Source: Amia ocellicauda
Taxonomy: Eukaryota; Chordata; Actinopteri; Amiiformes; Amiidae
Direction: 5' to 3'
NCBI RefSeq assembly: GCF_036373705.1
Contig: NC_089851.1
Coordinates: 61,592,850-61,656,849 of the forward strand
DNA: 64,000 nucleotides
Shown piece after piece: positions 14,332 to 61,920 of this stretch (its first letter is position 1; each line of letters starts with the position of its first letter). The notes beneath the pieces were generated by a model, which saw only the letters and a program-made list of their open reading frames with translations, was not told the origin of the DNA and did not search any database. The translations under genes and the position numbers were made by a program.

Positions 14332-17923
<3,592 letters not shown>

Positions 17924-28400: not shown

Positions 28401-29247
28401 GCCAGTCTCCAGACCTTAATCCCATAGAAAATCTGTGGAGGGAGCTGAAGGTTCGAGTTGCCAAACAGCCTTGAAACCTTAATGACTTGGAGAGGATCTG
28501 CAAAGAGGAGTGGGACAAAATCCCTCCTGAGATGTGTGCAAACCTGGTGGCCAACTACAAGAAACGTCTGACCTCTGTGATTGCCAACAAGGGTTTTGCC
28601 ACCAAGTACTAAGTCAAAGGGGTCAAATACTTATTTCCCTCATTAACATGCAAATCAATGTATAACTTTTTTGAAATGCGTTTTTCTGGATTTTGTTGTT
28701 GTTATTCTGTCTCTCACTGTTAAAATACACCTACCATTAAAATTATAGACTGATCATTTCTTTGTCAGTGGGCAAATGTACAAAATCAGCAGGGGATCAA
28801 ATACTTTTTTCACTCACTGTACTTTGAACGGATGTATCTGCTGTATCCTCTCTCAAGTTTTTTTTTTTTTTTAGTAGCTGCGGTGCAGCTACACCAGACT
28901 AATCGATGATTAATTACATTAAGATTTTAATAATCAACGTTACCAGTAACTTGTTGCAGCCCCACTGTCGCCGAGTACTATTGAATCTGTAAGTGTGTTT
29001 TAATGACGAGGCGGCTAACGCCAGCTAGTAGTTATTGGATATCGTGTCAATGAACCGCTGCAATACTGGGGCATGAACGTCAATCACGGGACTTGTAGTT
29101 TTCGTTGCCTTCGGTTAATTGAGACAATCCACAACCGAACTACATTTCCCACATTTGCCACCATAATAACGATTAGTGTAAAATATCGTTATTATCTTAA
29201 TCATGTCAATGTAATATTTCCTTATAGAGTAAAATGAATAAATAAAA

Positions 29248-32200: not shown

Positions 32201-35200
32201 GCAATTTTTTTATTTCTTTCATTCTTATTTTATTAATTTTTGTATTCAGCTGACTTCAGGAAAGAACACCTGAACACAATGTAAAGATGAGACCTATATT
32301 CATCAAAGCAGGCTTAGATTAAGCCCCAGGACCTCCCAGTACTTGTCCCTTTATAACATGACTGTTAATATTTAACCTGCTGGTTCACCGCCCTGCTCTA
32401 GCTTCTCTCAACACAACACAAGGACTGATCGGAGTTAAAGATACATTCAGAAAATTCATACATCTGCCTGCATCACTGAACTGTTCAAGACCTGCTTTTA
32501 TGAAGAGAAAAAAACAATGCAAAACTATAATGTACTTTTCCTGCAGGTGAGCTGCCCACAGTCCTACAGAAAGTAGAAACGTGGGTCAGGTTTAGGGTCT
32601 GGAATTAGAATTTAATAACGGATTTCTTAAAATAAATAAAAAATAATAATACTCCCAAATAACCTAATGATGGACTACAATTACAAAACTAACTATTGAA
32701 CGATGGCACATGGCCTGTTTTTTGTTATTATATATCCTGCCCATGAGAGAAGCCCTGAGTAACCCGCTCACTACAGAAGGCCCGTCTGCTACAGCTCTAT
32801 AGCCATGCCCTGCTCCTCCCCCCCCCACTGACCAGGGTCCGCTGCAGCTTGCGCAGCCTCTCCACGGGCTCGGGGTCGTAGCCTGGGATCTTCCTCATGT
32901 CGTTGTTCTTCAGCGCCAGCATGGTCTCCAGCATGAAGCGCACCTGCAGAGACACCACAGAGAAGGAGGCGTCAGAGAGAACACACAGTTAAAGTTTAAC
33001 CTAAGTTTAATCTTCTCTCTACAATAACAAGGCTACTGAAGACATGACTGAGCTGGGTTTGGAAGCATTGACGTTACGATAAAGACAGTGCTGCTATACC
33101 CGGTTCTGGTCCTGAAACTGCGCTCCCAGGGCACTGGCCTTGCGCTGGGCCTCGGAGATCAGCTCCTTGAGGGCGAGCGCGTCGTCCTTGCGCAGCGCGA
33201 AGCCCACGTTCCTGAGGAGCAGCAGCACGAGCTCGATGTCCTTCTCGGCGAAGGCGGAGGTGAGCTTCCGGAGCAGGTCGAAGATGAGCAGCGCGTGCAC
33301 CACGTGAAAGTTGTAGAGGTGGGCGATGATGGCCAGCAGGTTGTCACACTCCTTGCCCTCGCAGCCGGCCTGGTACAGCTCCTCGAACCGGCGCACCACC
33401 GTCTCCAGGAACTGCGCCCCCACCTGCACAGCCACCGGGAGGAGATTCATTTAAACACAGTGTTGTCCGTGGTGTACTGTACTCCTGCACACGAGCACGG
33501 TGCCTGGAATAAAGGTGTCTACTGAATTAATAAATAAAAATACAACGTGCAGACCAGTTTCCGTTGGTTAAGACTTCTGATGTTAAAGATCTTGACATCA
33601 CCGACCTTTAATGAACAAGATTGGCATCATTAACACACTGTGCCTAATGTATAATCCAATGCTGATAACGCACAGCCTTCTCATGCATTTGGTCTGGTAT
33701 AAGAATGGGATCCAGCGGTATGTTAAGAGTTACTGTAAAACTACCAGTATTCACGAGACGACAACAACACTAAGACAGAGCGCTTCAGTTAGGTGGCACA
33801 GCGCTGGTATATACAAGAGAAGTACATTAGAGTCAGACATTAAAATCCCCAAAGCTGTCAGTGGAAAGTGTTAAACAGCAGGTAGTATTCAACAGTCAGA
33901 GGCAGTGAAGCATTGAAAAGCCCAAGGACTCCGAGGTACTAAACTATCCCCATTTATTACACAATAAAGGCTGCCGACTGCCCCTGCCTCCGCCGGACAA
34001 CAGGTTGTCAAGGTGTGAACCCAACACCCTCCATTAATCACAGGGTCACTGGCAATTACCTTACAAATGAACCCTGCTGGAGATAGGGCACACACGGCCC
34101 GGTGGCTCAACACATTGCTGACTAATGACCATGCAGGGGTTAATGGTTACACACGCAAAGACACACACAGCTCTGTGCAGGGCTTCACGAACGCCACAGG
34201 AATTCACCAGGCACAAAACCATCCACGACTCATAAAAACGGCATCCTCTACCGTTTTATAGTGTAACACATTAAAAATCGAAACATTGAGTAAATAATTG
34301 GTTATGCACCTTAAAATATGGAGTGAAGAGTTCTTAAAAAAACCAAACTACACAACCACAGCTTGCATTTCTACTCAGTTAACCCAGACTGGGGGAGATG
34401 CGTCTAATACCCCAGCGCAGTTTAACCCTCAGGAACCCAGTATGGCTTGAATGTCACCCACAGAGCGACAGACTTCTCTTAAACCGTGACATTACTCAGT
34501 GACTCCCACTTCCCACTGGGTTCTCAGGAGTTGAAGTTGAAGCCCCAGTGGCCGGCGGACCCCCACGCACCTCCAGCCCCACGGTGTGATGCAGCACGCT
34601 GACCAGCAGCACGTGCTCCAGCAGGAGGCGGTCAGCCATCAGGGCCGGAGACACGCAGGCGGACAGCAGCACGTCAGTCAGGGTGTCGCTCATGTCCTTC
34701 CGGCTGTGGCTCATGTACAGCTGCTCCAGCTGCCCGCTGATGGACGCCATGTTGGGCTCGCTCAGCCTGCGGGCGACAAAACAATCACAGATGCGCAGAT
34801 GCAGATTTGACTTTGATGAACATCCATGAGGGGACAGGAAAGAGGAGAACTACGAATGACTCTTTCGTCCGTACCTGTTCACCAGCCCTTTCACGCTGCG
34901 TCTCAGCCTCTCCAGCTGGGCTCTGCGGGTCGAATCCACGGACTCCCTCAGGGCAGGGGGGACGTATTTTCCGGTGGCACTGCCAGGCTTCCCCCCCCCG
35001 ACAAAAACAAGACATTTTAGCAGCATGTATTTGTACTACCTTTTTAAATATCATTTTAATACGGCTATGTCAGAGGGGGGTTGGAAACATACAGTTTACA
35101 CTTAAAACTTGGACTCCCAAAAAAACAATACACATGGTTTCCTTTACAAATAATAGGCAGCAAAATGATAAAGTGCAGTATTTTCCTTTTTTTTTTTCTT

Positions 35201-38317: not shown

Positions 38318-38380
38318 ATGGACGAGGACGATGTGACGATCAGAGAGCAGAACTTCCACAGCCAAGTGCGAGAGTACACT
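38318..38380 (+). CDS. lmbr1: LMBR1 coding exon 1
   Basis: This encodes MDEDDVTIREQNFHSQVREY plus T (21 codons) and ends phase 0 at donor GTGAGT. An in-frame-independent ATG 7 bases upstream (38311) is in another frame; the start at 38318 gives the family N-terminus. Confidence 0.93.
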
Positions 38381-41300
38381 GTGAGTACAGCCGCCGCGGG
38401 CATCCCAACTTCAGCCGCTCCCCGAGTTCGGCAGCGCACAGCACGCACAGCGGGTCAGGCCACCGAGCGGCGCCCCGGCCCCTGCGCCTGCCCCGGCCCC
38501 TGCCCCTGCCCCTGCCCCTGCCCCTGCCCCTGCCCCTGCGCCTGCCCCGGCCCCTGCCCCTGCCCCTGCCCCTGCCCCTGCCCCTGCCCCTGCGCCTGCC
38601 CCTGCCCCGGCCCCTGCCCCTGCCCCTGCCCCTGCGCCTGCCCCTGCCCCTGCCCCTGCCCCTGCCCCTGCGCCTGCCCCTGCCCCTGCCCGGTGCTGCG
38701 GAGAGGCGCTCCGGGTCCACCGGGTCCACCGGGCTGATACCCGCTTATCTGATGCCTCTACCGTCACTGGGCGCGCTTGCGGCCAGTTTCCTACGGTGCC
38801 ACCACTAAAGTGCATTCGCAGTCATTATATCCACTGCCAGGCTATTAACGAAATCAACATTCATTATTAATATTTAACATGATATACGATGTTACGTGTT
38901 TAAAAGCCCACGCTAGGCGGTTATTGAGATGGCATAGACCGTTCCACTATTGACAGCACGGCAGTGTTTCCACACGTACAATTGCAAAGGCACGTCCAAG
39001 TCTACGACAGCGGAAAAACAGCGGCATGTTTTTAAAACCCGATCCGTGTTGGCAGCAGTAAACGGCAGGCTAATCCGTGCAGCGGCTGCGCCTCCAGGCT
39101 GTCCCCGCCATGTGCTGGACGATTCAGGCAGAGGCACTAGCTCTGAAGCCTGCTCTCCCACTGCTGATGAGCTGTTTTATTCCGCAGGTTGGGCCTTGAT
39201 TGATAGAGTGTTCACTGACATACTTTATTTATGTACTTGCTTGATAAAACTTTTTCCACCCAGGTTGTAAGTGTTATCCAGCTCATTCCTGTTTGTGTTC
39301 ATCGAGGAAATTGATAACCTGGGCTTCGTTCAAAAAATGTTTTAATATATTTATGATGTTATATGATGTCTGACGGGATTATGTTTGAACAAGAATGCTC
39401 TTTCCCAGCTCCCACCCCCACCCCACTACGTTTTCTAACTTTTTTGAAATTCTTTGGAAATTAAATGGTGAAGGAAGAATTCCTATCATGTAGGAAGTCC
39501 TGTGCCTAGAAAACACATGAAAAGAAACACGGAAACATGTTTTAAAAAAAGCTTGAACTTAAACATTTCACTTGTATAAATGCACACAAGCATTTGATAT
39601 TGAAACCGCTATCAACAATGGCATTATTCTGCTGTTTCAGTTTTAGCTCTGTTGCTGATGAGTCCCTGGGGACACAATTAATCCACAGGGTGCTTGCTTT
39701 GACATGCGTCTCGGGCAGAGATACCAAGACGCACTGTCATGTGTACAGGACCCTCCCCGGGGCACGCTCTTTAAATGGCAGCAGTTTATCAAGTGTTGTT
39801 TAAAAGAAATAATGGATTCTGCTAAATCAGACTTTGACAAAGAATTGCACAGCTTCTGGTTGCATGAGAACGTAATGCTTTGTCCCCCACCTTGTGCGCT
39901 CTGGGATCTGGAACCGGTCACAAACCAGTTTCCCCGGAAATTGTGAGTATGGGTCCAAGCAAATCTTGGAAGGACTGTGTTTGTGGCTGTGCCGGTTTTG
40001 TCTGGTATTTTACCCCTGGCACAGTGCGTACTCGGATGTAGCCCATCTCCTGGCAGTCAGTCGGTCCTTAATTGAGAAGTGGTCTCACCGGGTGCACTCT
40101 GACCTCTCCTTACACCCTGTGTGACTCCGTGGGTTTTTGCGATAAGATCTGAGGCTGTTCTGTAAGCATTGCAGGATACCGTGCAGAATTGTAGTTGCAG
40201 CCTTGAAGGCTCAGGTGACCTCGTCCAGTTTCACGTGCGGGTTTGAGAACGAACTCTGGCAGAGGTTGATAACATCCTTAATTAAAACAAGTTAATTTTC
40301 TTTAGGTTCCATTGAGGGCCTTGGAAATCTCGCACGTTTATTTTCCCACTCTGTAAGAGTTATGTTTCCGACCCGTGTTTCCTTATTGTTTTCCGCCCTG
40401 TCAGTGGAAATTGGCAGTAAAATCCTGTATCCACACATTGTCCAGTGCCTTTTGTTTTTGTTCAAAGCGAGAGAGAAGTAAACAAATGCCTTATATAGGA
40501 CAGGGCTTTGTTTATAAGTGGAGCAGCAACTTTAAACTGTACTGTGTTTGAACTTGAAGATGCTTGGAGATTTGTATTCTCATGTCAGTCTTGCTTACAA
40601 ATGTATTGTACGTTCGCAGCACAGTGTGTGAATACATAATTTCCACAGGAACACAGGGCTTTCCCATGCTCAGTATTGTGTACAGTGAAGACAACACCTC
40701 CTGAGCTGATATTGATTTAAGGTTGCATACATGCACACGTACAACCATTCATTAACAGATGCTAGTTAGTCTTTGCACACTTAAAGTTCATGGGAAGCTC
40801 ATTTCCAATATTTTTGGTTTATTCATTATACCTACCTGTACCGTCTACACTCACCTAAAGGATTATTAGGAACACCTGTTCAATTTCTCATTAATGCAAT
40901 TATCTAACCAACCAATCACATGGCAGTTGCTTCAATGCATTTAGGGGTGTGGTCCTGGTCAAGACAATCTCCTGAACTCCAAACTGAATGTCTGAATGGG
41001 AAAGAAAGGTGATTTAAGCAATTTTGAGCGTGGCATGGTTGTTGGTGCCAGATAGGCCGGTCTGAGTATTTCACAATCTGCTCAGTTACTGGGATTTTCA
41101 CGCACAACCATTTCTAGGGTTTACAAAGAATGGTGTGAAAAGGGAAAAACATCCAGTATGCGGCAGTCCTGTGGGCGAAAATGCCTTGTTGATGCTAGAG
41201 GTCAGAGGAGAATGGGCCGACTGATTCAAGCTGATAGAAGAGCAACTTTGACTGAAATAACCACTCGTTACAACCGAGGTATGCAGCAAAGCATTTGTGA

Positions 41301-44300
41301 AGCCACAACACGTACAACCTTGAGGCGGATGGGCTACAACAGCAGAAGACCCCACCGGGTACCACTCATCTCCACTACAAATAGGAAAAAGAGGCTACAA
41401 TTTGCACAAGCTCGCCAAAATTGGACAGTTGAAGACTGGAAAAATGTTGCCTGGTCTGATGAGTCTCGATTTCTGTTGAGACATTCAGATGGTAGAGTCA
41501 GAATTTGGCGTAAACAGAATGAGAACATGGATCCATCATGCCTTGTTACCACTGTGCAGGCTGGTGGTGGTGGTGTAATGGTGTGGGGGATGTTTTCTTG
41601 GCACACTTTAGGCCCCTTAGTGCCAATTGGGCATCGTTTAAATGCCACGGCCTACCTGAGCATTGTTTCTGACCATGTCCATCCCTTTATGACCACCATG
41701 TACCCATCCTCTGATGGCTACTTCCAGCAGGATAATGCACCATGTCACAAAGGTCGAATCATTTCAAATTGGTTTCTTGAACATGACAATGAGTTCACTG
41801 TACTAAACTGGCCCCCACAGTCACCAGATCTCAACCCAATAGAGCATCTTTGGGATGTGGTGGAACGGGAGCTTCGTGCCCTGGATGTGCATCCCACAAA
41901 TCTCCATCAACTGCAAGATGCTATCCTATCAATATGGGCCAACATTTCTAAAGAATGCTTTCAGCACCTTGTTGAATCAATGCCACGTAGAATTAAGGCA
42001 GTTCTGAAGGCGAAAGGGGGTCAAACACAGTATTAGTATGGTGTTCCTAATAATCCTTTAGGTTAGTGTATAACCCTGTGGGCATTGTTTATAATGACAG
42101 TCTCTAATGTCAAAAAATATGCCCTTGCCCTTGCCTCTTACCTTTCGTGGCTCAGAGTGAACTTTTATAGAATATATAGAATATATAGAAAATAGATTTG
42201 CCTTTGATGACCTTTCCAATTGCTTTGGCATGGCTTTTGAGATGCCGATGAATGTGCCGGTCTGTGTGTCTCGTTCTTTGGCGTTGGCTGCTTCGTTTGT
42301 CAAAGCATGCAGAAAAGCCCGTTGTGTGAGGATCCCGATCTGCTTTCCACACATCCCCAAACAAGCCTGGGCTGCATGCAGAATGCATAGCAAAGCTTTA
42401 TTGCTTTTGCTTAAGTCTGATCTGTGGCTGGCGAATCAATCGATGTATGTGGACAAGAGCTGTTAGGAATGACTCACCCCTTTGGACGGGAACCCAACGC
42501 CCATGAGATGGAAGAACTGGAAGAAAAGAAGCTCCCTTTTTCTTTTGTCAAGCAGATCCTCCTGTTCAGTTTCCCTCTGCTTCCAGGCTCTGTCTGTGCT
42601 CTGACTTTTGATTTAAGTAAATGTCTGGATTTGCATTTGACCATCCTGTTATAATTCTGTTGATGAGATCCATACAGGTGATGCAGTATAGGCTAGCAGA
42701 CATGCTCTGTCTTTTACCTTAGAGCAGGCCATATATGGCCCCTGAGGCCGTTTGCTCCGGCCCTTGAGTCCATTTGAAAATAAAATAAAATTCTGTGACA
42801 TACACTTAACACTAGAAGCGCCAAGCTTATGTAATACACATCTCTACTGCGTTTTAACTGCATAAACACGAAAATAAATGCATTCTAAACACATTTACCT
42901 AGAATAGCCAAAATTGTGTAATTTTCACTGGTCATTAAAATACATAACTCAATATAACCCATAATCCTGCCTTCCCTATACAATAGTCAGTCTGGCGCTG
43001 TCTTTCATGTGCTTGAAAAACACACTCATTGTACAGCATTGCAGATGTTTTCTTACAACTGTAGTCAGATTGAGTGGATACAGTGCTTACCCTGCAAATA
43101 AACATGGACTGGAAATGGAGACTGAAGAGAGCGTGTTTTGGACATGCCGTCTATATGAACATGACTGATTCAGCGGCATCAGTGATACTGGCAGTGACAG
43201 ATCATTTGTGGGTTTGTGCCAGTGCTGTGAAAACACTGCGAGTGAAACGCCAGGTCCAAATGGCACCGAGTGCTTTTACTCCACTGATCAATATGCGATT
43301 GCTACTGCACATAGTACAGAGTGCAATAGCGCAGCACATCCACAAAATCATGATTCATGGACATTATCAGTGGAGGAGCATTTATTGAGATGCTATATAT
43401 TCGTGGAGTAAAAGTGTCACCTGAGAGGCTGTCAAAATGCAGTGTGAGGTATGAGCTCATGCAGGGAAAGTGGAGAAACGTGTTCTGTGTGGACTGTCCC
43501 GAGCTGTCAGTTATGCAGGCTAAATATATAGTAAATAGTTTATTGAAATACACAGATTTTATTCACTGTAACTTTGTATGTTGAAAACAAAGTTTACACA
43601 GTGTTGAAAATGTTTACTTTAGTGTACAGTTATGTTTTGATAAATGCAATAGATATTTTTTAACTATACAATATTGCTTTTGAGCATTATTCCAATATTT
43701 ACGTTTACACCGGTTTCATTATCTTACTGTATGCTGTTTTTGAGCTTTTTGCTTATTGTAGGCTATATAGTTATTTATGTTTTTACTGCAGTTTGTGCAT
43801 TTAGAAGAAAGTGATTTGTTCTTGCATTAGAATGTAAGTTTCATCTGTATTAATGTTTTGATGTAGGTGTATTAATTAAGTTTGCACCCCGTGAATACAT
43901 TTGTGAACACTCGAATGGCCCTTGATAGGAAAAAGGTTCCCCACCCCTGCCTTGGAGTCTAGTTGCTGACAGTACTGTACATTTTAGAAGTCAAAATGGT
44001 ATTAAAATGTTATTTTAATTGTATTTATTCACTTTACATTAAACAAAATGAGAAGAAGGTTGTCCCAGTAAAGCATATCTCTGGTTTCATTTTAGATTTA
44101 TTACACGGCTTTAGTGAAATTCTCGTGCCAGCTCCCTGTGCTCTGGAACGGACTGGAATGTAAACTTTGAGAACAAATGCATCTTCATGTGTGTTTATGT
44201 GTATATATACAGGAATGTTGTGCGTTTCAAAATTGATCTTCCTGCTTGGATGTCCATTTAGAAATCACGTAACTCGAATTTGAGTATCTCGTGGGATTAC

Positions 44301-47300: not shown

Positions 47301-50300
47301 GGCGGCACTTAGAAGAGGTAGACTGGAGCACACTGGATACAGAGTCAGTTGAAAATGGATGGTTATATTTTAAGACTATACTACTTGAGGCTCAGGAGAA
47401 ATTTGTACCAAAACACAGTGGCCAAAATGGTTTAATAGAAAATGTTTTATAGTTCATACAAAAGGGATAGAGACTAAACAATATACAAAGAATATGTTGA
47501 ACTGCAAAGAGATGTTAAGAAAGGGATCAGGAAAGCAAAGAGGGAAATAGAAAGAAACATCGCTCTTGGAACTAAAACTAATGCAAAGAGTTTTTTCAAT
47601 ACTACAGCAGCAAGAGGTCAATAAAGGAGGAAGTGAAATGGATAAAGGGCAAAAATTGAGGTATCTTGGAAAACAAACAAGATGTGGCAAATGATTTAAA
47701 TAAGTATTTCAGAGAGGTTTTTACAGAAGAAAAAACTGATAACAAGCCACAGGTTAACAATCGGTCCAGGCAAACCCTAAGAGAGATCAGGATAAATGAG
47801 GAGGAGGTACTAAAGGGACTCGCAGAATTAAAAAACAAACAAATCACCTGGGCCAGATGGGATATTTCCAACAGTACTTAAAGAAATTAGGGAAATTATT
47901 TTTATCCCGCTAACTCAAATATTCCAAATGACACTTCGAACAGGGGATGTGCCAACTGACTGGAAGACAGCAAATGTCAAACCAATCCACAAGAAAGGGG
48001 ACAAAACTGAGCCAGGAAATTACAGACCAATCAGTCTCACCTGCATCACCTGTTGGAGAAAATGATTAGACAGAAAATAGAGGAGCATCTTAATGAAAAC
48101 CATATTCTTGGAGATAGTCAAGTCTTCAAAATCATGAAAGGCATCGACCACATCAAACCAGAGGAGCTTTTCCAGATCAGCAGGGACACACGCACCTGGG
48201 GACACAAATGGAAATTGGGCTTCAAGGCATTCAAAATTGAAAACGGAAGACACTTCTTCTCACAGAGTTGTCACAATCTGGAACAAACTCTCCAGTGATG
48301 TGGTTGAGCTGAAAATCTGGGAACATTTAAAAATAGAATGGATAGGATCCTTGGATCAGTTTGTTATCAATGCACATCAAACAAGCACGATGGATCGAAT
48401 GGCCTGCTCTCAATTGTAAACTTTCTTATGTTTTAATGACATTCTTTGAAGTTTATTGCTAATGCAGTATAATAGCTCTTGACAGCATTATTTGGGCAAC
48501 TAATTTTCCTAAAGCAGACAAGCTGATTTGCAACTGTTAAAAAAAAAATGGTTTTACAATTGCTCAAGCAGAAAACCGTTTTGAAGACTGCCTGAGAGAA
48601 GCAGTCGAACAAGAAGGATGTACTTTACTTATAAAGTTGCTGCCTGAGTCGTGCAGAACATGATGGGGCACCTGGTATTCTGCTGCTGAATATCAATCCA
48701 GATATCTATGTGCATAGACTGTGTGTAGAAGGAAATGCACATTTCACCAAACAGCATTAAAAGACCGTCAGAAATTGCTTACAGATGTGCAGTTTAAATT
48801 CTCAACTCTCCCAAATCGTGAGGCATGGCAAGGCATGGCTGGATCTGATTCAGTGGTTTGAACACCGTGAAGTGAGAGTCCATCAAACATATAAAAAAGG
48901 TTCAAAATTAATACATACTGAGCAATGCCATACGATATACACGGCACAGATGGCACAAGAATCCTTCCATGATGCGTCTGACAAACTGACTAACAACCTG
49001 CATCAATGCAAAAATAAACTACATTCTGAAGGCAATAAGGGTATTCGACCCACAACAAGTGTGTAGATTGGATCTGGAAGCCCCCTATTATATCCTATTC
49101 CAGTATTTGATGCAGACTATCAGATAAATCAGAAATGGATGAATACCAACCATATGGAAGGGAAGGAGGAAAAACTGCAGTAGGATGAATTTTGGAATAA
49201 AGCTGAAGAATGATTTCCCAATTTAATACAAAGGCTGAAAGATCATTGTCAGTTGTTACCAATTCTGTAGATGCTGAAAGAACTGTTTTTACAGGACATC
49301 AATCTCTGACAGGAGGCAGGCTGAACCAACTGATGATGCTTAGATTGAATAGGAGAATGTAGGCTAATCCCCGGGACATTTTCTTTCATGAAACTGTAAG
49401 TGACACTTCATGTGCTGCTAGTGAACAGCCTGGCATTGTTATCGTGATGTTCTCTTTGTAATATGTTACAACATTGTTGTTATGGGTTCAGTATTTTATA
49501 TAAATTGTTCCAGGAATCAGTGCCATTTGTTTATTTTATTTTTTTAATCTTTTGCTGACAAGTTGTGTTCCTACTAGTAAACGGAAACATTGACATTGTT
49601 TACAGATTCTAACTTGGTAATACAGGGATGTATGTCTTAATAAATACTGTTGCTGTTGCTGCTTAATCAACGCAATGCGCCTTAATAGAATGACTAACGG
49701 AGCTGATTAAAGGATTCCGGGGATTATTAACCAGTAAGAGGTTTAATTAAGCTACACTTCATTCCTCTTACAGTAAGGCGGTCATCTAGTCTGCTTAACA
49801 ATGCAGGTTCCATAAAACGCAGGCCCTAGGTGTGGTATGTTTTCAGAAATCTTGTCTTTGCACACCTTCAGTTTGTTCTTTAGCTTCTCCAACTGCCTCT
49901 GCAGAACTTTCTGTGGTGCACATAACTGGACAACCGACATCGTGCTTTTGTTAGTCTAAAATCAAGTCAACGTTCTCGTCAAAAAGAGAAATCGCGAGCA
50001 AGTTCCCTCAGTGTCCGTGTCTGACTGACCTTCCTGCTTTTTAATGAAGCCTGCTGATTACAGGATGGGCCTGTAGTGAACAGGAAAGGTCTGAATAAAT
50101 AAAACACTGTAAGAAAAGAGGAGTCCAGCTGTAATGAAGAACCGTACGTTTGGGTTGTGACCGGTCCTGTTTAACCTGCTTCTTTTCATGAAACCCTTCT
50201 TTTGTCCTCAGATCTGCTTCCTGCTGTTCGCGGTTCTCTACATTGTCTCATACTTCTTCATCACCAGGTACAAGAGGAAAGCCGGTAAGCAAACCCTTCC

Positions 50301-53300
50301 TTTACATCACCTTTATCTGCCCAACTCCTGCTCCTTTAATCTATCTTATAACTAACACTGCAGCGTGACCTGCGCTCAGCCACCCAAGTGGATTACTTTC
50401 AACCTTTACTGTGACAGCCACTGTTTTTGTTGTTGTTGGATTCATTATTGTCATTATTTGGAATTCCGCAGTAATTGTGCAACTTGCGAAATTTTGATTT
50501 CTTGTTGTTGAGGAAGTCTGGAACGGCAGAAGAAAATAAACCAGTTTATTTCTGTTTGTTTGGACTCACTAAGGGATTTGAAAGACGCTGGAAGGCATGG
50601 TGAACTCTTAATGGGATTTTCTGGAGCTGCGTGGGTGTGTTTACCTGCTGCCCCACTGTTCGCACTCTTGTCCTGCCGCTGTCCCCAGGCAAAGCGTGGC
50701 TCTGAGGGTAAAAGCAACTGTAGGAGGCGTCTCAGTGCTGTGATGGAAACCTGATGCAAAGTGTCAGCCGGATTATCAGCCCTACATAGACAAACCTACA
50801 GGGTGATTTTTAAATGTAGAGAAAATCATACTGTATCTTTAGATTTAGGTTTTATTCATGGGGTATAGGCCATGGATGGGCACCATGTGTAGCGATAGTC
50901 CAGGAGAGTCTGGTATGAAATTTCCATTGTTTTTTAAATTACAATGCCTTTTGAAGTTCCTTTTAAATGTAACAAGAAAAGGAAGCACATTTTTAGCTTT
51001 TGACCGTCGGCAGCTGTTTCCTCACCCTGGTATGGCACCTGAGCTAATACATGGTCACCTAGAGCTTTCCACAACAGATTAGACATTTTAGTTTTTTTAA
51101 GGTGAATACAGGGACCAGCAATTCACAGGGTATAAGATGCTTCAGTTCCACTCACAAGGCACCCATTGTGCAGTGTCTGAAAGAGGCATAACATTCATTA
51201 GGGAGCTTGACAACGATTGCCCTGTTGTTCTCTTATGATTGTACAGAACACACTTGAAAAGCCTGAAGTCGCATTATGTTGCATCGGTTTCTGCATCAGA
51301 TGCACATTTCGAATTAGATATATTGTGGCAAAGTATAATATGCTTTTGTAGTTTTCTTGGCTCTTTAGATGCTTCCATTTCAGTCTTATTGCAGCTCGTT
51401 TTGCACTGACACAGACCTCACAGTGCTCAATTGATTTAGTAGAAACATCCTCTTCTCTCCGCCACCGTACAACCTCTGGTAAAGCTGCTAATTTTGTCAT
51501 CAGTTGTGGCTTATAGGGTTACATTGGCCATCTAGTAATAAAAGCATGTTTGTGTGATTAGAAACGCCAAGATCAAATCGTGGAATACTGTCATTTCAAA
51601 TCATTCAAATCTTTATCTTTTTGGGCCTCTTGCAAATTTCCCTTCTGAATTTTAAACTTTCTGGTCTTGGCATCTGGTTAAAAGATAAGAGACCTATATG
51701 TACAGAGACGTAAGAAGTGGAACAGAAGCTCGATTTCCAGAGGACAAATATAGAGCTGCCGGGGCACTAGGTGAGCAAAAAGTAGATCAGACGTGTTCAA
51801 ACTCTCTCAGTGGGTCACTCCGCTGCCATTACCGTCTCACTCTGTTGGAACTCAGAGTGCTGCCAGATAGTTGCTCAACTAATAGGGATGTGGGATGCAG
51901 CTTCTTCCAGATCACTCAAGAAACCTGCGGCCTGCAGCATGGAGATGTTTTTCCAATGTGTCAGAGCAAGCGATGCTGAAATGACCCCCCCAGGGACCTG
52001 TGGATCTGCCGCAAGCTAAACTACGACTGTTGGAATTGTGGAAAGATGTCTCTTGAAAAATGTCTGGCCTGCCTCCCCCCTCCTTCCTATTACATTATAG
52101 TAGTGGTGGACTACCCTGTCCTTGGCTAACCTGGATCCTGCAGGACCTACAGACTAATTATGTCCAATTGTTGACTAAATTAAGTAGTTTTGGATTTAAC
52201 TTTAAAAGCAGACTGCTGGTTTAGACTTCTTATTTTAACCCTGCTGTGGTACCATGGGGTCTCTGTGACCCCACCCCAATGGTACTGTCAATGTAACTTT
52301 TTTTCATGGTACCAGAGCAGGGTTACGCCACTTGTTCTTTATACAGGAGTCACTGTGTGTAAACATCAGGTCTGTCTCTGGGCTCACTGTGTAGGACACC
52401 GACATAAACCATGTACATGTAAGCCATGAGTCAGACTTCCCATGAAATACTGTACCTTTATGAAACTGCATTGTAGAAGGATGCACTTGATTGCTTCTGT
52501 TGCCAGCTCCCATTAAGATGGCAGCATTCATGCCTGTGGTTTGCTCGATAAGGGGAACCGCTAATTGGCCAAGACTCCTATCCAAACTCTCCATGAATCG
52601 GCTAAATGTTCCAGGCGTACAGAAGCAATTCCTGCTTGGTTTTGGGGACTGCGGCCTTTGTTTATAGGAGTGTTTCTTCATTTGTTTGTTCTTTTTCTTT
52701 AGATGACCATGAAGACGAAGATGCCATCGTGAACAGAATATCGTAAGTACAGCTACACTCAATAGTAGGAGTAAATGTGTTACCTGTTAAAGGTCAGCTG
52801 GACAGCAATTTAGGAAAACCTCATTGTTGATGAAACCACTGCAACACTGCTGTTGTAATACAGCCCTATCAATCTCAGATGTGACTTGAAGCACCGCATT
52901 TAACAAGACCCAAACAGCTTTTGCAAACGCAGCCTGTGTCTTGCCTATGGTCTGGCTGAGGTCAACAAACTCAAGACTCGAACCAAAACGGCAGCAATAT
53001 GAATACTGTGAGGGCTCCGTGCACAGAATGCTTCAGACAGCAGCTGAAATGTCATTTTTCTCCAGGGCTGGACTTGACTTGGATCTTGAGTAGGAGGTAC
53101 TTGGAAACTGTGGCGTTTCTTTCACTTTTCTGGAACAGGCCGAGTAAGGCCGGCTGAAGTGATTATTCCCTCAATGGTTTTCACAGCCATAAGTGTACCC
53201 TGCAGTTGAACAATGTGCTGCTGTGCAAAACCTCGAAACTTCCGTCTGCAAACGGGAGAGATCCATCTGCTGCGAAAAACAAACTGGAGACTGGACTGGT

Positions 53301-54835
53301 TTCAATCAAGTCTGCTGGGCTGATATCAAGCATGCAGGCCCTGAAGCACCGCATGATTGGACTCTTCTCATCCGTCAGGCTTGTGAGCTCTTAGGCCCTG
53401 TTCACACGCATGCTTATGGTTGTGTTCTTTGCACACGGCACATTTCTACAGGTGCTTCATCAATAGGAGCAGTATGGAAAGGCTTCAGCCATATAGTTAG
53501 ATAGATAAATGTATGAACGCAAACATGAATAAATGCATAATCAAAAGGGCTTCTTCTTTTAAAGAGGAAGTACCGTTTCCTCTTCTGTGCCCCATGGTAC
53601 TGATAACACTGGGAGGTACTCATCTCTGCAATCTCATGCTGCAAGAGATGGGTCTCAGGACCATGTTTCCGTTCCGTAGACATGCTGCCAGTGTGCTCAT
53701 CAGCTGGGCTTTAATTACCTCTCCCTGTGTCCATAATAACCTCCCATCATAGCACCTGCACACCCATATTAACACCTTTCTGATAAAAAAAAATAATTAA
53801 GAAACGTAACTTTAAAAATGAAATGCAATATATATATTTATGACACACAGCCCTACACCTAGTCATTTTTCCTTTTGAGAATCTTCACCTCTTTTCATTG
53901 CGTGTAAAATCGCTCGCTCAAATGCTCATTGGTTTTAAGTTCTGTGGCCAGAGCAGTCAAGATTTACAAAATAAAAAAACACAAAACACTGATATGGTGC
54001 AGGTTAGATAAGAGTCTGTAAGTGACTACACGGCCCGAGCCCCCTCCGGTCTGTCCTGGAGCACTGCGGGTCCTGGGTCCCCGTCTGTGGTCCTATTAAC
54101 GCATTAACAGACCTGTAACACGTCTGTCCCAGGGAGGAACTAATGGCCTGACTAATGGCAGTGTGTGTCTGGTTCTCCGCAGGCTGTACTTGTGCACATT
54201 CACGCTGGCGGTGTCAGGTGGAGCCGTCTTGCTCCTGCCCTTCTCTATAATCAGTAATGAGATCCTGCTTACCTTCCCCCAAAACTACTACATCCAGTGG
54301 CTTAACGGCTCACTAATTCATGGTCAGTACTTTAATTTTCTTAATTATAACTGTCTTGTAACGATTATTGGTTTGCTTTTGTGTGGTTGGTCAGCTTGTT
54401 GGGTTTTTTGTTTGTGTTTTTTGTTCCTAATGAAGTTTTGCAGTTTTTCCATCAGCAGGCTTCACTCAGTTGTGCCAGTCATTGGTTCTGTGCTGATTAT
54501 GGAGGGGTAAAAGTCTGCTAAGGGTTAAGTAAGACCCTTAGTTCAGGTAACGGGTCAATTAGGAGTTGAGTTGGAATGAAATCCAGCAGCCACAGTGGAC
54601 TCCAGGACCAGGGTGGGGACGGACTGGTGTTGGTAAGAGCGACTGTGTAATACTGTTCATGTGTGTTCAAGCATTAACATTCTACTTTGTTAGTTATTGA
54701 TTAAGGATGAAAGAGTGATACATTACCCAAAAGTCTCTCTAATTCATTAAAATGTATTTGTTGGAAGATCAGTTTCAATTCTGTATCTTTAACATGTTTT
54801 CCAGTTGCAGTTCTGCAGTTCACTGGTCAGTTGCA

Positions 54836-57800: not shown

Positions 57801-58327
57801 CTCCTGGTCGTTCCCAGGTATTGACCACAAGGTGGCGTCATTGTACAACCTTTCTCCAAGTTGTCATGAGTGCCTACATAGCCATTTACTAAGCATCCCT
57901 CTGGCAACATAACCCACTTTAAACTGCCTTCAATCTATTATTTATTTTTTATTACCAACTACAACATGCTTAATAATCACAATAACAATAATGTTAGAAG
58001 TAGTACTAGTATAGTACTTTCTTGTTATTCATTTGATTTGCTGAAGACCCCTGTGATCTAAACTTCATGTCTAGTATCTCGCATGATGGACCCAGATATA
58101 CTCCGTGTGTGGTTCTGCCTGCTGTTTTGCTTGTTGTCTCCTGAATTGTCCCCTGGGCCCTAAGCCAGGGTGAACGCACAGAGCGGCTCCCTTGCTAATG
58201 GTGTCTCCTGTGGCTCGTTTCAGGCCTGTGGAATCTGGTGTCTCTGTTCTCCAACCTCTGCCTGTTCGTGCTCATGCCCTTCGCCTACTTCTTCCTGGAA
58301 TCGGAAGGATTCGCAGGATCCAAAAAG
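38318..58327 (+). CDS. lmbr1: LMBR1, limb region 1 protein, exons 1-5 (partial; continues beyond window)
   Basis: Joining 38318-38380, 50212-50284, 52703-52742, 54183-54322 and 58224-58327 gives the first 140 residues of LMBR1 in frame with GT-AG introns. LMBR1 is a multi-pass plasma-membrane protein of the LIMR family (related to lipocalin receptor LIMR). The N-terminal segment REQNFHSQVREYT precedes TM1 (ICFLLFAVLYIVSYFFITRY), an acidic loop (DHEDEDAIVNRIS), TM2 (FTLAVSGGAVLLLPFSI), a conserved loop (FPQNYYIQWLNGSLIHGLWN) and TM3 (FSNLCLFVLMPFAYFFLE). Intron lengths are 11.8, 2.4, 1.4 and 3.9 kb. The window ends in intron 5, the intron that holds the SHH limb enhancer in other vertebrates. 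Confidence 0.94.
38466..38692. repeat. (CCCCTG)n GC-rich tandem array in LMBR1 intron 1
   Basis: About 38 hexamer units consist mainly of CCCCTG, with interspersed CGCCTG and CCCCGG variants that recur roughly every 54-60 bp, giving a higher-order unit. It begins about 85 bp after the exon 1 donor. The minus strand is (CAGGGG)n. All six frames are open, so the proline/leucine, alanine/cysteine and glycine/arginine frames here are artefacts. Confidence 0.95.
38700..40845 (+). other. LMBR1 intron 1, left part
   Basis: This is unique sequence. No exon, transposon or RNA gene was recognised; the open frames at 38950-39270 and 39704-39946 lack any family resemblance. Confidence 0.5.
40848..42068 (+). 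mobile_element. Tc1/mariner DD36E transposon, copy A
   Basis: The 1221-bp element has TA target sites at 40846-40847 and 42069-42070. Its TIRs are CACTCACCTAAAGGATTATT and, read inverted from the right end, CACTAACCTAAAGGATTATT, differing at one position. It lies in LMBR1 intron 1 in gene orientation. It is over 99% identical by eye to copy B at 58448-59669. The low divergence and intact TIRs indicate a young insertion. Confidence 0.95.
40996..42036 (+). pseudogene. DD36E Tc1 transposase, copy A, one premature stop
   Basis: A 346-codon reading frame is interrupted once, by TAG at 41053-41055 (codon 20). The next in-frame Met is at 41158, leaving 292 open codons that lack the N-terminal DNA-binding helix-turn-helix. 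Catalytic residues are visible: Asp155 in AWSDES, Asp246 in YFQQDNAPCHK and Glu283 in LNPIEHLW, with 36 residues between the last two. This places it in the DD36E group rather than DD34E. It would act in the nucleus on its own TIRs if active; the truncated frame is unlikely to bind TIR DNA. Confidence 0.9.
42725..43949. mobile_element. hAT-type element with 8-bp target-site duplication
   Basis: The element begins CAGGCCATATATGGCCC and ends GGTTCCCCACCCCTG. It is flanked by CCTTAGAG (42717-42724) and CCTTGGAG (43950-43957), an 8-bp direct repeat with one mismatch. The right end, read inverted, is CAGGGGTGGGGAACCTTTTT, a hAT-style terminus. The left end matches only in CAGG, so it is diverged. 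The interior has open frames (43074-43584) but no recognisable transposase; it is probably non-autonomous or decayed. A TTAACACTAGAAGCGCC motif at about 42808 resembles a piggyBac-type end and may mark a nested insertion. Confidence 0.65.
43960..46585 (+). other. LMBR1 intron 1, middle part
   Basis: This is AT-rich unique DNA with no recognised exon, RNA gene or transposon. Confidence 0.45.
46590..48437 (+). mobile_element. CR1-clade LINE, internally deleted
   Basis: In shifting frames this encodes the apurinic-endonuclease domain (DVVGVTETWLTEN near 46700, YRPPNSDAALYN near 46914, VIMGDFNFPNIDWESP near 46987), the linker (NFRKANLEGMRRHLEEVDW near 47265) and the beginning of reverse transcriptase (IHKKGDKTEPGNYRPISLTC near 47985). 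At about 48118 it jumps to the RT C-terminal FKIMKGIDHIKPEELFQISR and the 3' end, so most of the RT catalytic region is deleted. It ends in CTTTCTTATG near 48420-48430. Multiple stops make it inactive. Confidence 0.85.
48590..49365 (+). pseudogene. hAT-like transposase remnant (C-terminal dimerisation region)
   Basis: Near 49245-49363 a frame reads SVVTNSVDAERTVFTGHQSL then TGGRLNQLMMLRLNRRM followed by a stop. This resembles the hAT C-terminal dimerisation motif (NSVDAERxFS ... LTxxxLxxLxMLxxN). The preceding 48785-49066 frame may be an earlier part of the same protein. Several frameshifts and stops intervene. Terminal repeats were not found. Confidence 0.55.
49370..50211 (+). other. LMBR1 intron 1, right end
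   Basis: This is mostly unique DNA. The segment 49655-49760 is TAATTA/TTAATTAAG-rich, repeat-free and could be a small conserved non-coding block, but nothing more can be shown. Confidence 0.4.
50212..50284 (+). CDS. lmbr1: LMBR1 coding exon 2
   Basis: This encodes TM1, ICFLLFAVLYIVSYFFITRY, then KRKA and the first base of the next codon. The acceptor is TTTTGTCCTCAG and the donor GTAAGC. Confidence 0.95.
50285..52702 (+). other. LMBR1 intron 2
   Basis: This 2.4-kb intron has no recognised exon. It contains the hairpin element at 52235-52326; the rest is unique sequence. Confidence 0.6.
52235..52326. mobile_element. Small palindromic element, piggyBac-MITE-like
   Basis: A 92-bp hairpin runs from TTAA (52235-52238) to TTAC (52323-52326). 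Arms AACCCTGCTGTGGTACCATG and CATGGTACCAGAGCAGGGTT pair at 19 of 20 positions. The TTAA/TTA(C) edges and CCCTGC terminus suggest a piggyBac-type miniature element. The family assignment is tentative. Confidence 0.5.
52703..52742 (+). CDS. lmbr1: LMBR1 coding exon 3
   Basis: This 40-bp exon completes a split Asp and encodes DHEDEDAIVNRI plus two bases. The acceptor is TTTTTCTTTAG and the donor GTAAGT. It was found by its match to the conserved acidic loop and by the phases of its neighbours. Confidence 0.93.
54183..54322 (+). CDS. lmbr1: LMBR1 coding exon 4
   Basis: This encodes LYLCTFTLAVSGGAVLLLPF (TM2) and SIISNEILLTFPQNYYIQWL to GSLIH, plus one base. The acceptor is TGGTTCTCCGCAG and the donor GTCAGT. 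Confidence 0.95.
54838..54867. repeat. Poly-T homopolymer
   Basis: This is an uninterrupted T run of about 30 in LMBR1 intron 4. Confidence 0.95.
54930..55140 (+). repeat. Interspersed repeat fragment (family shared with 20805-20960)
   Basis: This has the same block order as 20805-20960: GGTATAGCGCCC, ATGCTTTACAC, an A-rich middle, GGCACCGAGGAGAGAGAAAC, and CAGGATGACAG. It is probably the 3' part of a SINE or LINE. The family was not identified. Confidence 0.45.
57035..57282 (+). mobile_element. Tc1/mariner 3' end remnant
   Basis: A short frame reads NKLTTRMPKVCKAVVAANG, which matches the C-terminal MP-R/K-V-AV-A-G ending of Tc1 transposases. About 150 bp later comes the terminal GTGACCCCAAACTTTTGAAC at 57254-57273 followed by AGTAGTGTA. 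The 5' remainder is missing. It is a different family from the copies at 40.8 and 58.4 kb. Confidence 0.65.
58224..58327 (+). CDS. lmbr1: LMBR1 coding exon 5
   Basis: This completes a split Gly and encodes LWNLVSLFSNLCLFVLMPFA (TM3) and YFFLESEGFAGSKK, ending phase 0 at donor GTACAG. The acceptor is CTCGTTTCAG. Exon 6 is not in the window. Confidence 0.95.
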
Positions 58328-58447
58328 GTACAGCAGTCCTTTCATTCATGATGTGTACTGAACTATGCATTTATGGATAAATCAAACTCAAAAGATTCAC
58401 TCCATAGCATTCTTTGAAATGTAGGGCTCTTATATATATATATATAA

Positions 58448-59669
58448 CACTCACCTAAAGGATTATTAGGAACACCTGTTCAATTTCTCATTAATGCAAT
58501 TATCTAACCAACCAATCACATGGCAGTTGCTTCAATGCATTTAGGGGTGTGGTCCTGGTCAAGACAATCTCCTGAACTCCAAATTGAATGTCTGAATGGC
58601 AAAGAAAGGTGATTTAAGCAATTTTGAGCGTGGCATGGTTGTTGGTGCCAAACGGGCCGGTCTGAGTATTTCACAATCTGCTCAGTTACTGGGATTTTCA
58701 CGCACAACCATTTCTAGGGTTTACAAAGAATGGTGTGAAAAGGGAAAAACATCCAGTATGCGGCAGTCCTGTGGGCGAAAATGCCTTGTTGATGCTAGAG
58801 GTCAGAGGAGAATGGGCCGACTGATTCAAGCTGATAGAAGAGCAACTTTGACTGAAATAACCACTCGTTACAACCGAGGTATGCAGCAAAGCATCTGTGA
58901 AGCCACAACACGTACAACCTTGAGGCGGATGGGCTACAACAGCAGAAGACCCCACCGGGTACCACTCATCTCCACTACAAATAGGAAAAAAGAGGTTACA
59001 ATTTGCACAAGCTCACCAAAATTGGACAGTTGAAGACTGGAAAAATGTTGCCTGGTCTGATGAGTCTCGATTTCTGTTGAGACATTCAGATGGTAGAGTC
59101 AGAATTTGGCGTAAACAGAATGAGAACATGGATCCATCATGCCTTGTTACCACTGTGCAGGCTGGTGGTGGTGGTGTAATGGTGTGGGGGATGTTTTCTT
59201 GGCACACTTTAGGCCCCTTAGTGCCAATTGGGCATCGTTTAAATGCCACGGCCTACCTGAGCATTGTTTCTGACCATGTCCATCCCTTTATGACCACCAT
59301 GTACCCATCCTCTGATGGCTACTTCCAGCAGGATAATGCACCATGTCACAAAGGTCGAATCATTTCAAATTGGTTTCTTGAACATGACAATGAGTTCACT
59401 GTACTAAACTGGCCCCCACAGTCACCAGATCTCAACCCAATAGAGCATCTTTGGGATGTGGTGGAACGGGAGCTTCGTGCCCTGGATGTGCATCCCACAA
59501 ATCTCCATCAACTGCAAGATGCTATCCTATCAATATGGGCCAACATTTCTAAAGAATGCTTTCAGCACCTTGTTGAATCAATGCCACGTAGAATTAAGGC
59601 AGTTCTGAAGGCGAAAGGGGGTCAAACACAGTATTAGTATGGTGTTCCTAACAATCCTTTAGGTTAGTG
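58448..59669 (+). mobile_element. Tc1/mariner DD36E transposon, copy B
   Basis: This 1222-bp element is a near-twin of copy A, one base longer. The right TA target site is at 59670-59671; on the left the flank reads TATATAA, so one base of the original TA context has changed. It was inserted into a TA/TATG simple repeat in LMBR1 intron 5, about 120 bp after exon 5. Its TIRs are CACTCACCTAAAGGATTATT and, inverted, CACTAACCTAAAGGATTGTT. Confidence 0.95.
58596..59637 (+). pseudogene. DD36E Tc1 transposase, copy B, one frameshift
   Basis: The frame opens MAKKGDLSNFERGMVVGAKR, with the helix-turn-helix intact (SISQSAQLLGFSRTTISRVY). It is shifted by one extra A in the A run at about 58986-58991 (six A where copy A has five). 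Translation would then end at 59031-59033. The catalytic half, with AWSDES, QQDNAPCHK and LNPIEHLW, continues in the next frame to TAG at 59635-59637. Copy B therefore has the N-terminal domain that copy A lost and lacks a continuous catalytic domain. Confidence 0.92.
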
Positions 59670-59682
59670 TATGTATGTGTAT

Positions 59683-59705
59683 ATATATATATGTATATAT
59701 GTATA

Positions 59706-59769
<64 letters not shown>
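59683..59769. repeat. (TA)n/(TATG)n simple repeat
   Basis: A TA-rich run with TG interruptions directly follows Tc1 copy B and continues the short TA run on its left side. Confidence 0.93.
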
Positions 59770-59773
<4 letters not shown>

Positions 59774-60690
59774 TATAAATACTGTGTTTTACTCCTGAAT
59801 TTCCATTGTTTTCTCTCTCACTCATTTTATTCACTGTTTCACATTTGTAGTGCTCTTCTCATCCTTATAGTAGTGTGTGTATGTAGAAGAATATATGTCC
59901 GTGATGGTTAAACTTTAGCTGGAGGCTTCGGCTTTACAGTGGAGACCCTGTACATATGTGACATAGAATAGTCAGAGAATAGTACTGTGAACATTTTATG
60001 GCCCTGTTCATAACCCTGACATTATTACCGTGTATAGAACACACATGGGATAAACTGGCACAAAAACTCGAGAGGATCCAGTGAATGCAGATTTCTCTTG
60101 GTGCACTAGAGTCTTTCAGGCCAAGATGGGCCTTGTTCATGCATTTTGAACGGCTCTCTTGGAATGAAGTCCATTGTCCAGGACATCATTGGTATAGTAA
60201 TGTGGTTGAATGTTTGGAAATATCAGTGCCTTGTGTTTGGAGCAGGTAGCAATTGAATCGTTCAGAGGAACCCTATACCTTTTCTCTGTGTGTCTTTTGA
60301 AATTGAAGTTCAATCAGACAATGGTGTCCGCCATTCCAGATTTCTCCATCCTGTTCACACTGAAATGAATGTCAATACTGAATTTCAGAAGAGTGCCTGG
60401 TGTTGAAAATGGCCTGTGTTTTAAGATGCGGTTACATGGTTCTAGTAGTTGGCTGTTCAAATTCAGTTTATTTTGCAATTGTCTGATTGCAATTTTTCTG
60501 CACTACTTTTTAAACTAGACCTTTCCAAGCACTGAAAAGCTAGAATTAAAATAAAATGTGGCTTCAGTCATGTTGAAGTGGCTTCATTGGTGGTGGTTGT
60601 TGGTATTATTTAAGATGTGAAATGTGAAGTGTAGTGTTAAGAAACTGGTACCAGAAACAGGTGTTCTGCCTCTGCCCTCTCCCTGACACC
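59770..60690 (+). other. LMBR1 intron 5 between Tc1 copy B and the candidate ZRS
   Basis: This is unique AT-rich DNA without exons or recognised repeats. The left margin of the enhancer may extend into it. Confidence 0.45.
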
Positions 60691-60694
60691 AATC

Positions 60695-61920
60695 TGTGAG
60701 TATTAACTTGTTAACATGAAACATAAAGCTGCTCATCAGCCCCAGCCACATCCTGACCCATTATTTAAATTATCCAGACGCTGCAAAATGTTCAACGCGA
60801 GAGCCGTGTCCCTGTGATTTAAGAGCCCAAACCCCCCCCCCCCCCCCACCTTCCCCAAAAAAAGTACTTCAAAAGGATAGGCGAATAATAAAGCAGTACG
60901 GCCCAAAAGAACAGAAAAAAATTGAAAGGGAGGAGGGAAACTGGAGGTAACTTCCTTGTTTAATTAATTAGCTAAGGAGGCTAGAAAGATGCATACAGAT
61001 AAATCGCGTTACAGCACAATAGATTGGGAAACAAGGATGTTGAGTTTTTGTCCCCCCCTTCCCCTGTTTCCTTTCTTTTTTTTAATACATTTCTATCCTG
61101 TGTCACAGTTTGAAATTGTCCTGGATTATGTCTCCATTTAACCAACTTAAAAATCAGCCTGTACTGTATTCTAAGACCAGATGTTTTTTTTTTTTTTCTG
61201 TAGCAAATTTGTATCGTTGTCGGGGGGGCTCCGTAATAAAGTAATGGCCCGAAATCAGTAGGAAGTTGGGGCGGCCTTCTGTCACTTTATGACTCTGTAC
61301 TCTTTCATTTTGCGGCGACTGTTTTTTGCCACTGATCATCCATAAATTTGCTTGAGTGAAGTACTGCTTAGTGTTCGCTACACGTTCAGGTATTTTGTGC
61401 GGAGGAAATTTGTGTGGCTGCTCTGAGATGAGGAGAACCCCCCCCCGCCCCCAGCCCCCTGCTGACAAGGGCAAGGGTACTGAGGGGTTTGAATTAAGTT
61501 TTTATAATAAGGAAATTAGTTTTGTAAGCAAGAGCAATATTAAGGCAAGTCTTTGAGCCCTTGTGGTTTTCTTTCCTGACACTTTTTTTTTTTTTTTTCT
61601 TTCTTTCTTTCTTTCCTTTCCTTTGCTATTCCTTACAGAGCCCCTAAAACTGACATAACTGGCAATAAAATCCAACATGTGATTTTGTGTGCCCAGCATA
61701 CTGATTTGTGCTCAGGTTTTTTTTTTTTTTTTTAATTTGTGACCACCATGCAAAAATTGGAAACCATAATATTTCATAATTCCTGCCTTTGGTTTACTAA
61801 ATTGTGGGCAGAGTTTACCAAAGCAAGTGCCCCAATGAGTAACCGACTGAACAAATGCTTCGGTTTGTTTTTTCAACTGTCCTCTCCGGGGAGCTGTAGT
61901 GTTGCTCTAATTTAACAAAA
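60695..61920 (+). promoter_or_regulatory. Candidate ZRS (MFCS1), SHH limb/fin enhancer, in LMBR1 intron 5
   Basis: The ZRS is a roughly 0.8-kb enhancer in LMBR1 intron 5 that drives SHH in the posterior limb or fin bud from up to about 1 Mb away; it is conserved from sharks to mammals (known). This segment lies 2.4 kb after exon 5, in the right intron. Blocks resembling the human ZRS as I remember it include ACATCCTGACC...TATCCAGAC (60748-60779), CTGCTTAGTGTT (61364-61375) and TATTTTGTGCGGAGGAAAT (61391-61409). Sites of the expected type are visible: ETS AGGAAGT (61260-61266), inverted ETS ACTTCCT (60950-60956), GGAGGAAAT (61401-61409), HOX-type CAATAAA (61663-61669) and GTCACTTTATGAC (61281-61293). 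The resemblance rests on memory and needs an alignment. Homopolymer runs interrupt it. Confidence 0.7.

Follow-up and report, generated by a model that had tools for sequence, protein, structure and literature searches.

The window, by which we mean the whole 64-kb stretch of DNA analysed here, contains MNX1, a NOM1-like gene and exons 1-5 of LMBR1. MNX1 is encoded on the plus strand by three exons (14332-14803, 16896-17056 and 17633-17922) that together specify 307 residues, including a homeodomain (E = 3.4e-22). A MIF4G-domain coding sequence, which we take to be NOM1, lies on the minus strand at 33097-33450 (E = 2.2e-10). The human genes are arranged in the order MNX1-NOM1-LMBR1, and the same order is found in the window. 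The MNX1 protein has its top match, among the best 120 of 2464 matches, in the spotted gar (79%; 84% over 301 columns), and none of the matches listed (the best 120 of 2464) is identical to it; its C-terminal stretch is unusual relative to that of gar. In a tree built from the window protein and 20 of the best 120 matches (2464 in total), gar, the window protein and 12 teleosts are not separated, with gar nearest by path, and support for this fork (85/88) and for the teleosts (91/97) lies in both cases below the program's threshold. A search of the 64 kb for known RNAs returned no Rfam family at its gathering score.

The coding part of LMBR1 exon 1 is located at 38318-38380 on the plus strand, followed on the same strand by exons 2 (50212-50284), 3 (52703-52742), 4 (54183-54322) and 5 (58224-58327), with intron 5 starting at 58328. 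In this joined model the five exons are in frame and encode the first 140 codons of the protein, the last residues being FFLESEGFAGSKK; GT donors are present at all five exons, AG acceptors precede exons 2-5, and the 140-residue product matches the Pfam LMBR1 family with E = 3.1e-29. The end of exon 5 presumably matches the human LMBR1 junction at codon 141 (c.423). Because the exon 5 junction corresponds to c.423 and a human variant of the ZRS (MFCS1), the long-range limb and fin enhancer of SHH, has been named c.423+4916 (PMC11394837), the intron that begins here is identified as LMBR1 intron 5. An earlier note on this DNA had chosen the same intron from the end of exon 5, and the exon model, the Pfam match and the c.423 junction all agree with that choice. 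Mobile and repetitive sequences are also present at the locus. Within intron 5, a Tc1/mariner-like transposase sequence at 58596-59634 (+), between exon 5 and the candidate enhancer described below, is split over two overlapping frames, 58596-59030 (HTH_Tnp_Tc3_2) and 58924-59634 (DDE_3), and this copy therefore looks broken; a closely similar second transposase ORF of 326 amino acids, with no internal stop, occupies 41056-42033 (+) in LMBR1 intron 1, and a transposase-like ORF of 179 amino acids was recognised by eye at 27935-28471 (+). A long TA-rich simple repeat (59670-59775) lies approximately 0.9 kb upstream of the candidate enhancer.

An axolotl ZRS of 821 bp is printed in PMC12176643, where a reporter is described as labelling Shh-expressing limb cells. 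Gapped local alignment places 60681-61401 of the window, corresponding to +2354 to +3074 of LMBR1 intron 5, against positions 2-650 of the axolotl element, in collinear order and on the same strand (plus, relative to LMBR1). In the alignment of this core, 443 of the 569 aligned pairs are identical (77.9%) and 126 are mismatched; when the 232 gap columns are counted as well, identity is 55% over 801 columns. Its score is 152.9, in contrast to a mean of 16.2 and a maximum of 26.9 among 300 dinucleotide shuffles and to a best score of 22.3 among 160 control tiles, taken from each strand at 80 places up to position 60750. Blastn matched 61078-61375 to axolotl 324-628 at 66.25% identity (320 columns; E = 1.8e-26). 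It also recovered a collinear match at 60937-60974 (92%; E = 1.5e-7), whereas the best match elsewhere in the window reached only E = 0.021. The match at 61078-61375 is an alignment of the kind the earlier note had proposed as a check, namely a continuous one of at least 65% identity over several hundred bases, and the collinear alignment together with the position in LMBR1 intron 5 supports that note's identification of the region as the ZRS. Short words of HOX type are frequent, and the earlier note had started from a few blocks likened to the human sequence, both of which would be compatible with chance similarity within an AT-rich intron; the margin over shuffles and tiles and the blastn E value rule this out, and we regard its probability as negligible.

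Several blocks of high conservation, all on the plus strand, punctuate the aligned region. The longest identical block, at 61092-61124, matches the axolotl ZRS at 33 of 33 positions and occurs once in the window. A 38-bp block at 60937-60974 (35/38) carries ETS and TTAATTAA homeobox-type motifs and includes a chicken primer match described below, and a block at 61324-61348 (23/25), also recognised by mouse and human oligonucleotides, retains the Hx site and the CATAAA core of Hoxsite 4 (61341-61346). These three strongest blocks were absent from the earlier note, which had named three others: 60748-60779 at the 5' side (26/32) and 61361-61375 at the 3' side (13/15) are indeed conserved in the axolotl ZRS, while 61391-61409 agrees in part, TTTGTGCG being common to both sequences and 61394-61408 matching at 9 of 15 positions.

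The extent of homology was examined by aligning sub-segments to the axolotl ZRS, each with 500 shuffles as control. The segments 60681-60930, 60975-61077 and 61349-61401 each scored above all 500 shuffles. No alignment was obtained for 61196-61300, where 355 of 500 shuffles scored as well, a result that counts against assignment to the ZRS; this segment holds an ETS block common to the chicken ZRS. Convincing homology to the axolotl ZRS is also lacking in 61402-61920, where the best local score of 16.0 was equalled by 6 of 500 shuffles and two ETS motifs are the only features of note, and axolotl 651-821 has no convincing counterpart in the window. Thus the interval 60695-61920 originally proposed starts at about the correct place but runs approximately 500 bp too far to the right; a boundary at 61920 is not supported, given the lack of convincing homology past 61401. 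The element would extend beyond 61401 if the AGGAAAT motifs at 61403 and 61510 correspond to the two 3' ETS sites of the mouse ZRS, which are reported to read AGGAAAT (PMC3314984).

Comparison with other vertebrates relied on 23 wild-type oligonucleotides from six papers on the chicken, mouse and human ZRS, which were scanned ungapped over the 64 kb. Four of the 23 have their best match inside 60681-61401: the chicken primer TTTGAGGTAACTTCCTTGCTTAA at 60941 (20/23; PMC5633194), the human primer 2R at 61009 (19/25; PMC5138840), the mouse MFCS1 Hx-site probe at 61326 (19/20; PMC5592926) and the human primer ZRS 2r at 61328 (20/22; PMC9149355), the last two overlapping a single site. Two further chicken oligonucleotides match there in part and have their best full-length ungapped match elsewhere: FWD shares the 15-base exact word GTTTTTTGCCACTGA at 61321, and REV shares GAAATxAGTAGGAAGT at 61251 (15/16). 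The chicken oligonucleotides were taken from PMC5633194 and PMC4111902. The order and strand of all six fit one collinear element. The other 17 found no convincing match in the 64 kb, which counts against the ZRS reading; some derive from outside the conserved core (for instance the two outer primers of PMC5138840), while several others lie within the tetrapod ZRS or close to it. The oligonucleotides of PMC2851570, PMC9304341 and PMC5659820 are placed in the supplements of those papers. The stretch of the chicken ZRS containing the Silkie SNP needs large gaps to align (46 gap columns beside 54 identities and 8 mismatches) and scores 18.7 against a shuffle maximum of 14.1. Likeness to the mouse and human ZRS consists of the Hx-site probe and the two human primers at collinear places, a CAGATG E-box, and ETS motifs of both the AGGAAGT and AGGAAAT forms.

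The mouse ZRS is reported to contain five ETS sites of the form AGGAA(G/A)T (PMC3314984). Four such motifs are present in 60695-61920, in agreement with the earlier report of ETS-type sites there (shuffle mean 0.60; 6 of 2000 shuffles reach four). Two of them lie in the aligned core: AGGAAGT at 60950-60956 (-), which is common to the axolotl ZRS, and AGGAAGT at 61260-61266 (+), which falls within the chicken REV match and is absent from the corresponding place in axolotl. Two AGGAAAT motifs, at 61403-61409 (+), just beyond the core, and at 61510-61516 (+), farther outside it, may also belong to the enhancer. For the aligned core 60681-61401, a count of only two, reached by 93 of 2000 shuffles, counts against the ZRS reading. 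Over 60681-61560, an interval whose end was picked after the motif at 61510 had been seen, 2 of 2000 shuffles attain the count of four, and among 144 tiles only the tile at this place does so. As proof of a ZRS, the ETS cluster is weak for the aligned core alone.

A central E-box, CAGATG (E-box 2), is found at 61178-61183 (+) at the aligned position, where axolotl has CAGACG; it conforms to the CAGATG motif defined in PMC12263586 and is a predicted HAND2 motif. Although the two elements share ETS, TTAATTAA and Hx/Hoxsite-4 motifs and, by homology, occupy the same gene intron in the same orientation, each has sites that the other lacks. The AGTAGGAAGT block is kept in the window and missing from axolotl; conversely, AGGAAGT at 609 and HOX-type cores at 371, 395 and 420 are present in axolotl only. 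Two homopolymer runs also occur inside the element, 16 C at 60832-60847 (+) and 14 T at 61184-61197 (+), the latter directly after the E-box; a T run of varying length is reported for the mammalian ZRS (PMC3314984).

The published HOX sites are conserved in part. Four Hoxsites with the core CATAAA are described in the mouse ZRS, of which Hoxsites 1-3 lie within a 110-bp stretch beside the E-box; as reported there, expression drops when these three are lost jointly, and single mutations have no visible effect in transgenics (PMC5561167). Given this outcome of the single mutations, we do not regard the HOX sites, Hoxd13 motif included, as defining a ZRS. When mapped from the published order of sites rather than from the mouse letters, Hoxsites 1-3 appear to correspond to axolotl positions 371, about 395 and 420, and hence to 61125-61175 (+) in the window, where ATTATG at 61125, a 5-bp gap near 61148 and TCTAAG at 61170 are found. 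By this mapping none of these three mouse sites, which set the level of SHH, would be intact here. From the published site maps (PMC3314984, PMC5561167 and PMC12263586), the mouse has five ETS sites and four CATAAA Hoxsites, whereas the window has four ETS motifs, two within the aligned core and two beyond it, and, according to the mapping above, probably Hoxsite 4 only. The exact Hoxd13 motif C/TAATAAAA (PMC12263586) is absent from 60681-61560, a further point against the ZRS reading; the motif scan recovered TAATAAA at 60886-60892 (+), which has 7 of 8 bases of this motif (TAATAAAG). The HOX-type sites claimed in the earlier note are thus present as words of that type, but the published motifs are kept only in part. 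HOX-like words at 61234, 61286 and 60722 could compensate for Hoxsites 1-3. A preferential loss of HOX cores is not supported, since 14 of 20 HOX columns are identical, as against 31 of 45 other central columns outside the 33-mer. With Hoxsites 1-3 all apparently missing from their places and the 33-bp block, the E-box and Hoxsite 4 kept, the central HOX input might be a gain of lobe-finned vertebrates or might have moved in this lineage, a proposal that we consider rather unlikely; if it were true, the fin ZRS would be less dependent on Hoxsites 1-3 than the limb ZRS.

The same observations bear on whether the element, though a ZRS orthologue by descent, has been weakened in the fin or has lost its activity there in this lineage, as is described for snakes and the South American lungfish, with loss of ZRS activity in other lineages reported in PMC13121165. 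Such a history would be in keeping with Hoxsites 1-3 that seem not to be intact, the absence of the exact C/TAATAAAA motif and a part of the middle of the element that cannot be aligned to axolotl. However, long decay would not be expected to leave a 33-bp block in full agreement with axolotl and several others at 83-94%, and the window keeps not only the CAGATG E-box but also an ETS motif no longer present in axolotl. We therefore consider a weakened or inactive ZRS improbable.

Taken together, the data make it very likely that 60681-61401 is the ray-finned fish orthologue of the ZRS in LMBR1 intron 5; it would most likely work as a long-range limb and fin enhancer of SHH, as in other jawed vertebrates. 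This reading is based on the collinear match to a published axolotl ZRS that drove a reporter in Shh cells, the correct intron and exon 5 junction, the neighbouring MNX1 and NOM1-like genes, four of 23 oligonucleotides with two more in part, the CAGATG and ETS motifs, and the Hx/Hoxsite-4 block. Homology, position, orientation and motif content are direct observations; enhancer activity, the factors bound and SHH as the target are predicted from them by analogy. According to work in mouse and chick, GABPa/ETS1-type factors on the ETS sites would set the boundary of expression, HAND2 and a bHLH partner would act through the E-boxes, and 5' HOX proteins on the HOX-type sites would set the level, such that the element, acting from afar, would switch on shh at the posterior margin of the fin bud.

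An ancient conserved intron element need not have SHH control as its main role and might instead regulate LMBR1 or MNX1; MNX1 lies in the window and SHH outside it, and the mouse ZRS is reported to activate Mnx1 as well (PMC12404194). Yet in axolotl the homologous element labels cells that express Shh (PMC12176643), and SHH is the subject of the ZRS work reported in mouse, chick and medaka (PMC12263586, PMC5561167 and PMC13121165). A main role other than SHH control is, in our judgement, very improbable.

The ZRS serves as a model for long-range enhancers, and point mutations in it cause human polydactyly. Orthologues are reported in both bony and cartilaginous fishes (PMC5561167 and PMC13121165), and the existence of the element here was therefore to be expected; in our literature search, no paper printing a full fish ZRS was recognised. 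The bowfin genome paper (PMC8423624) gave no match there for ZRS or MFCS1; ZRS, bowfin and LMBR1 are mentioned jointly in at least two papers, PMC11607692 and PMC13121165. A ray-finned fish ZRS provides an outgroup for sorting the binding sites ancestral to fins and limbs from those that were added or lost, and the present sequence shows which E-box, ETS and HOX sites are kept in a ray-finned fish placed close to the teleost base or outside the teleosts. Through this orthologue, the change of the SHH switch from fin to limb would become open to a direct reporter test.
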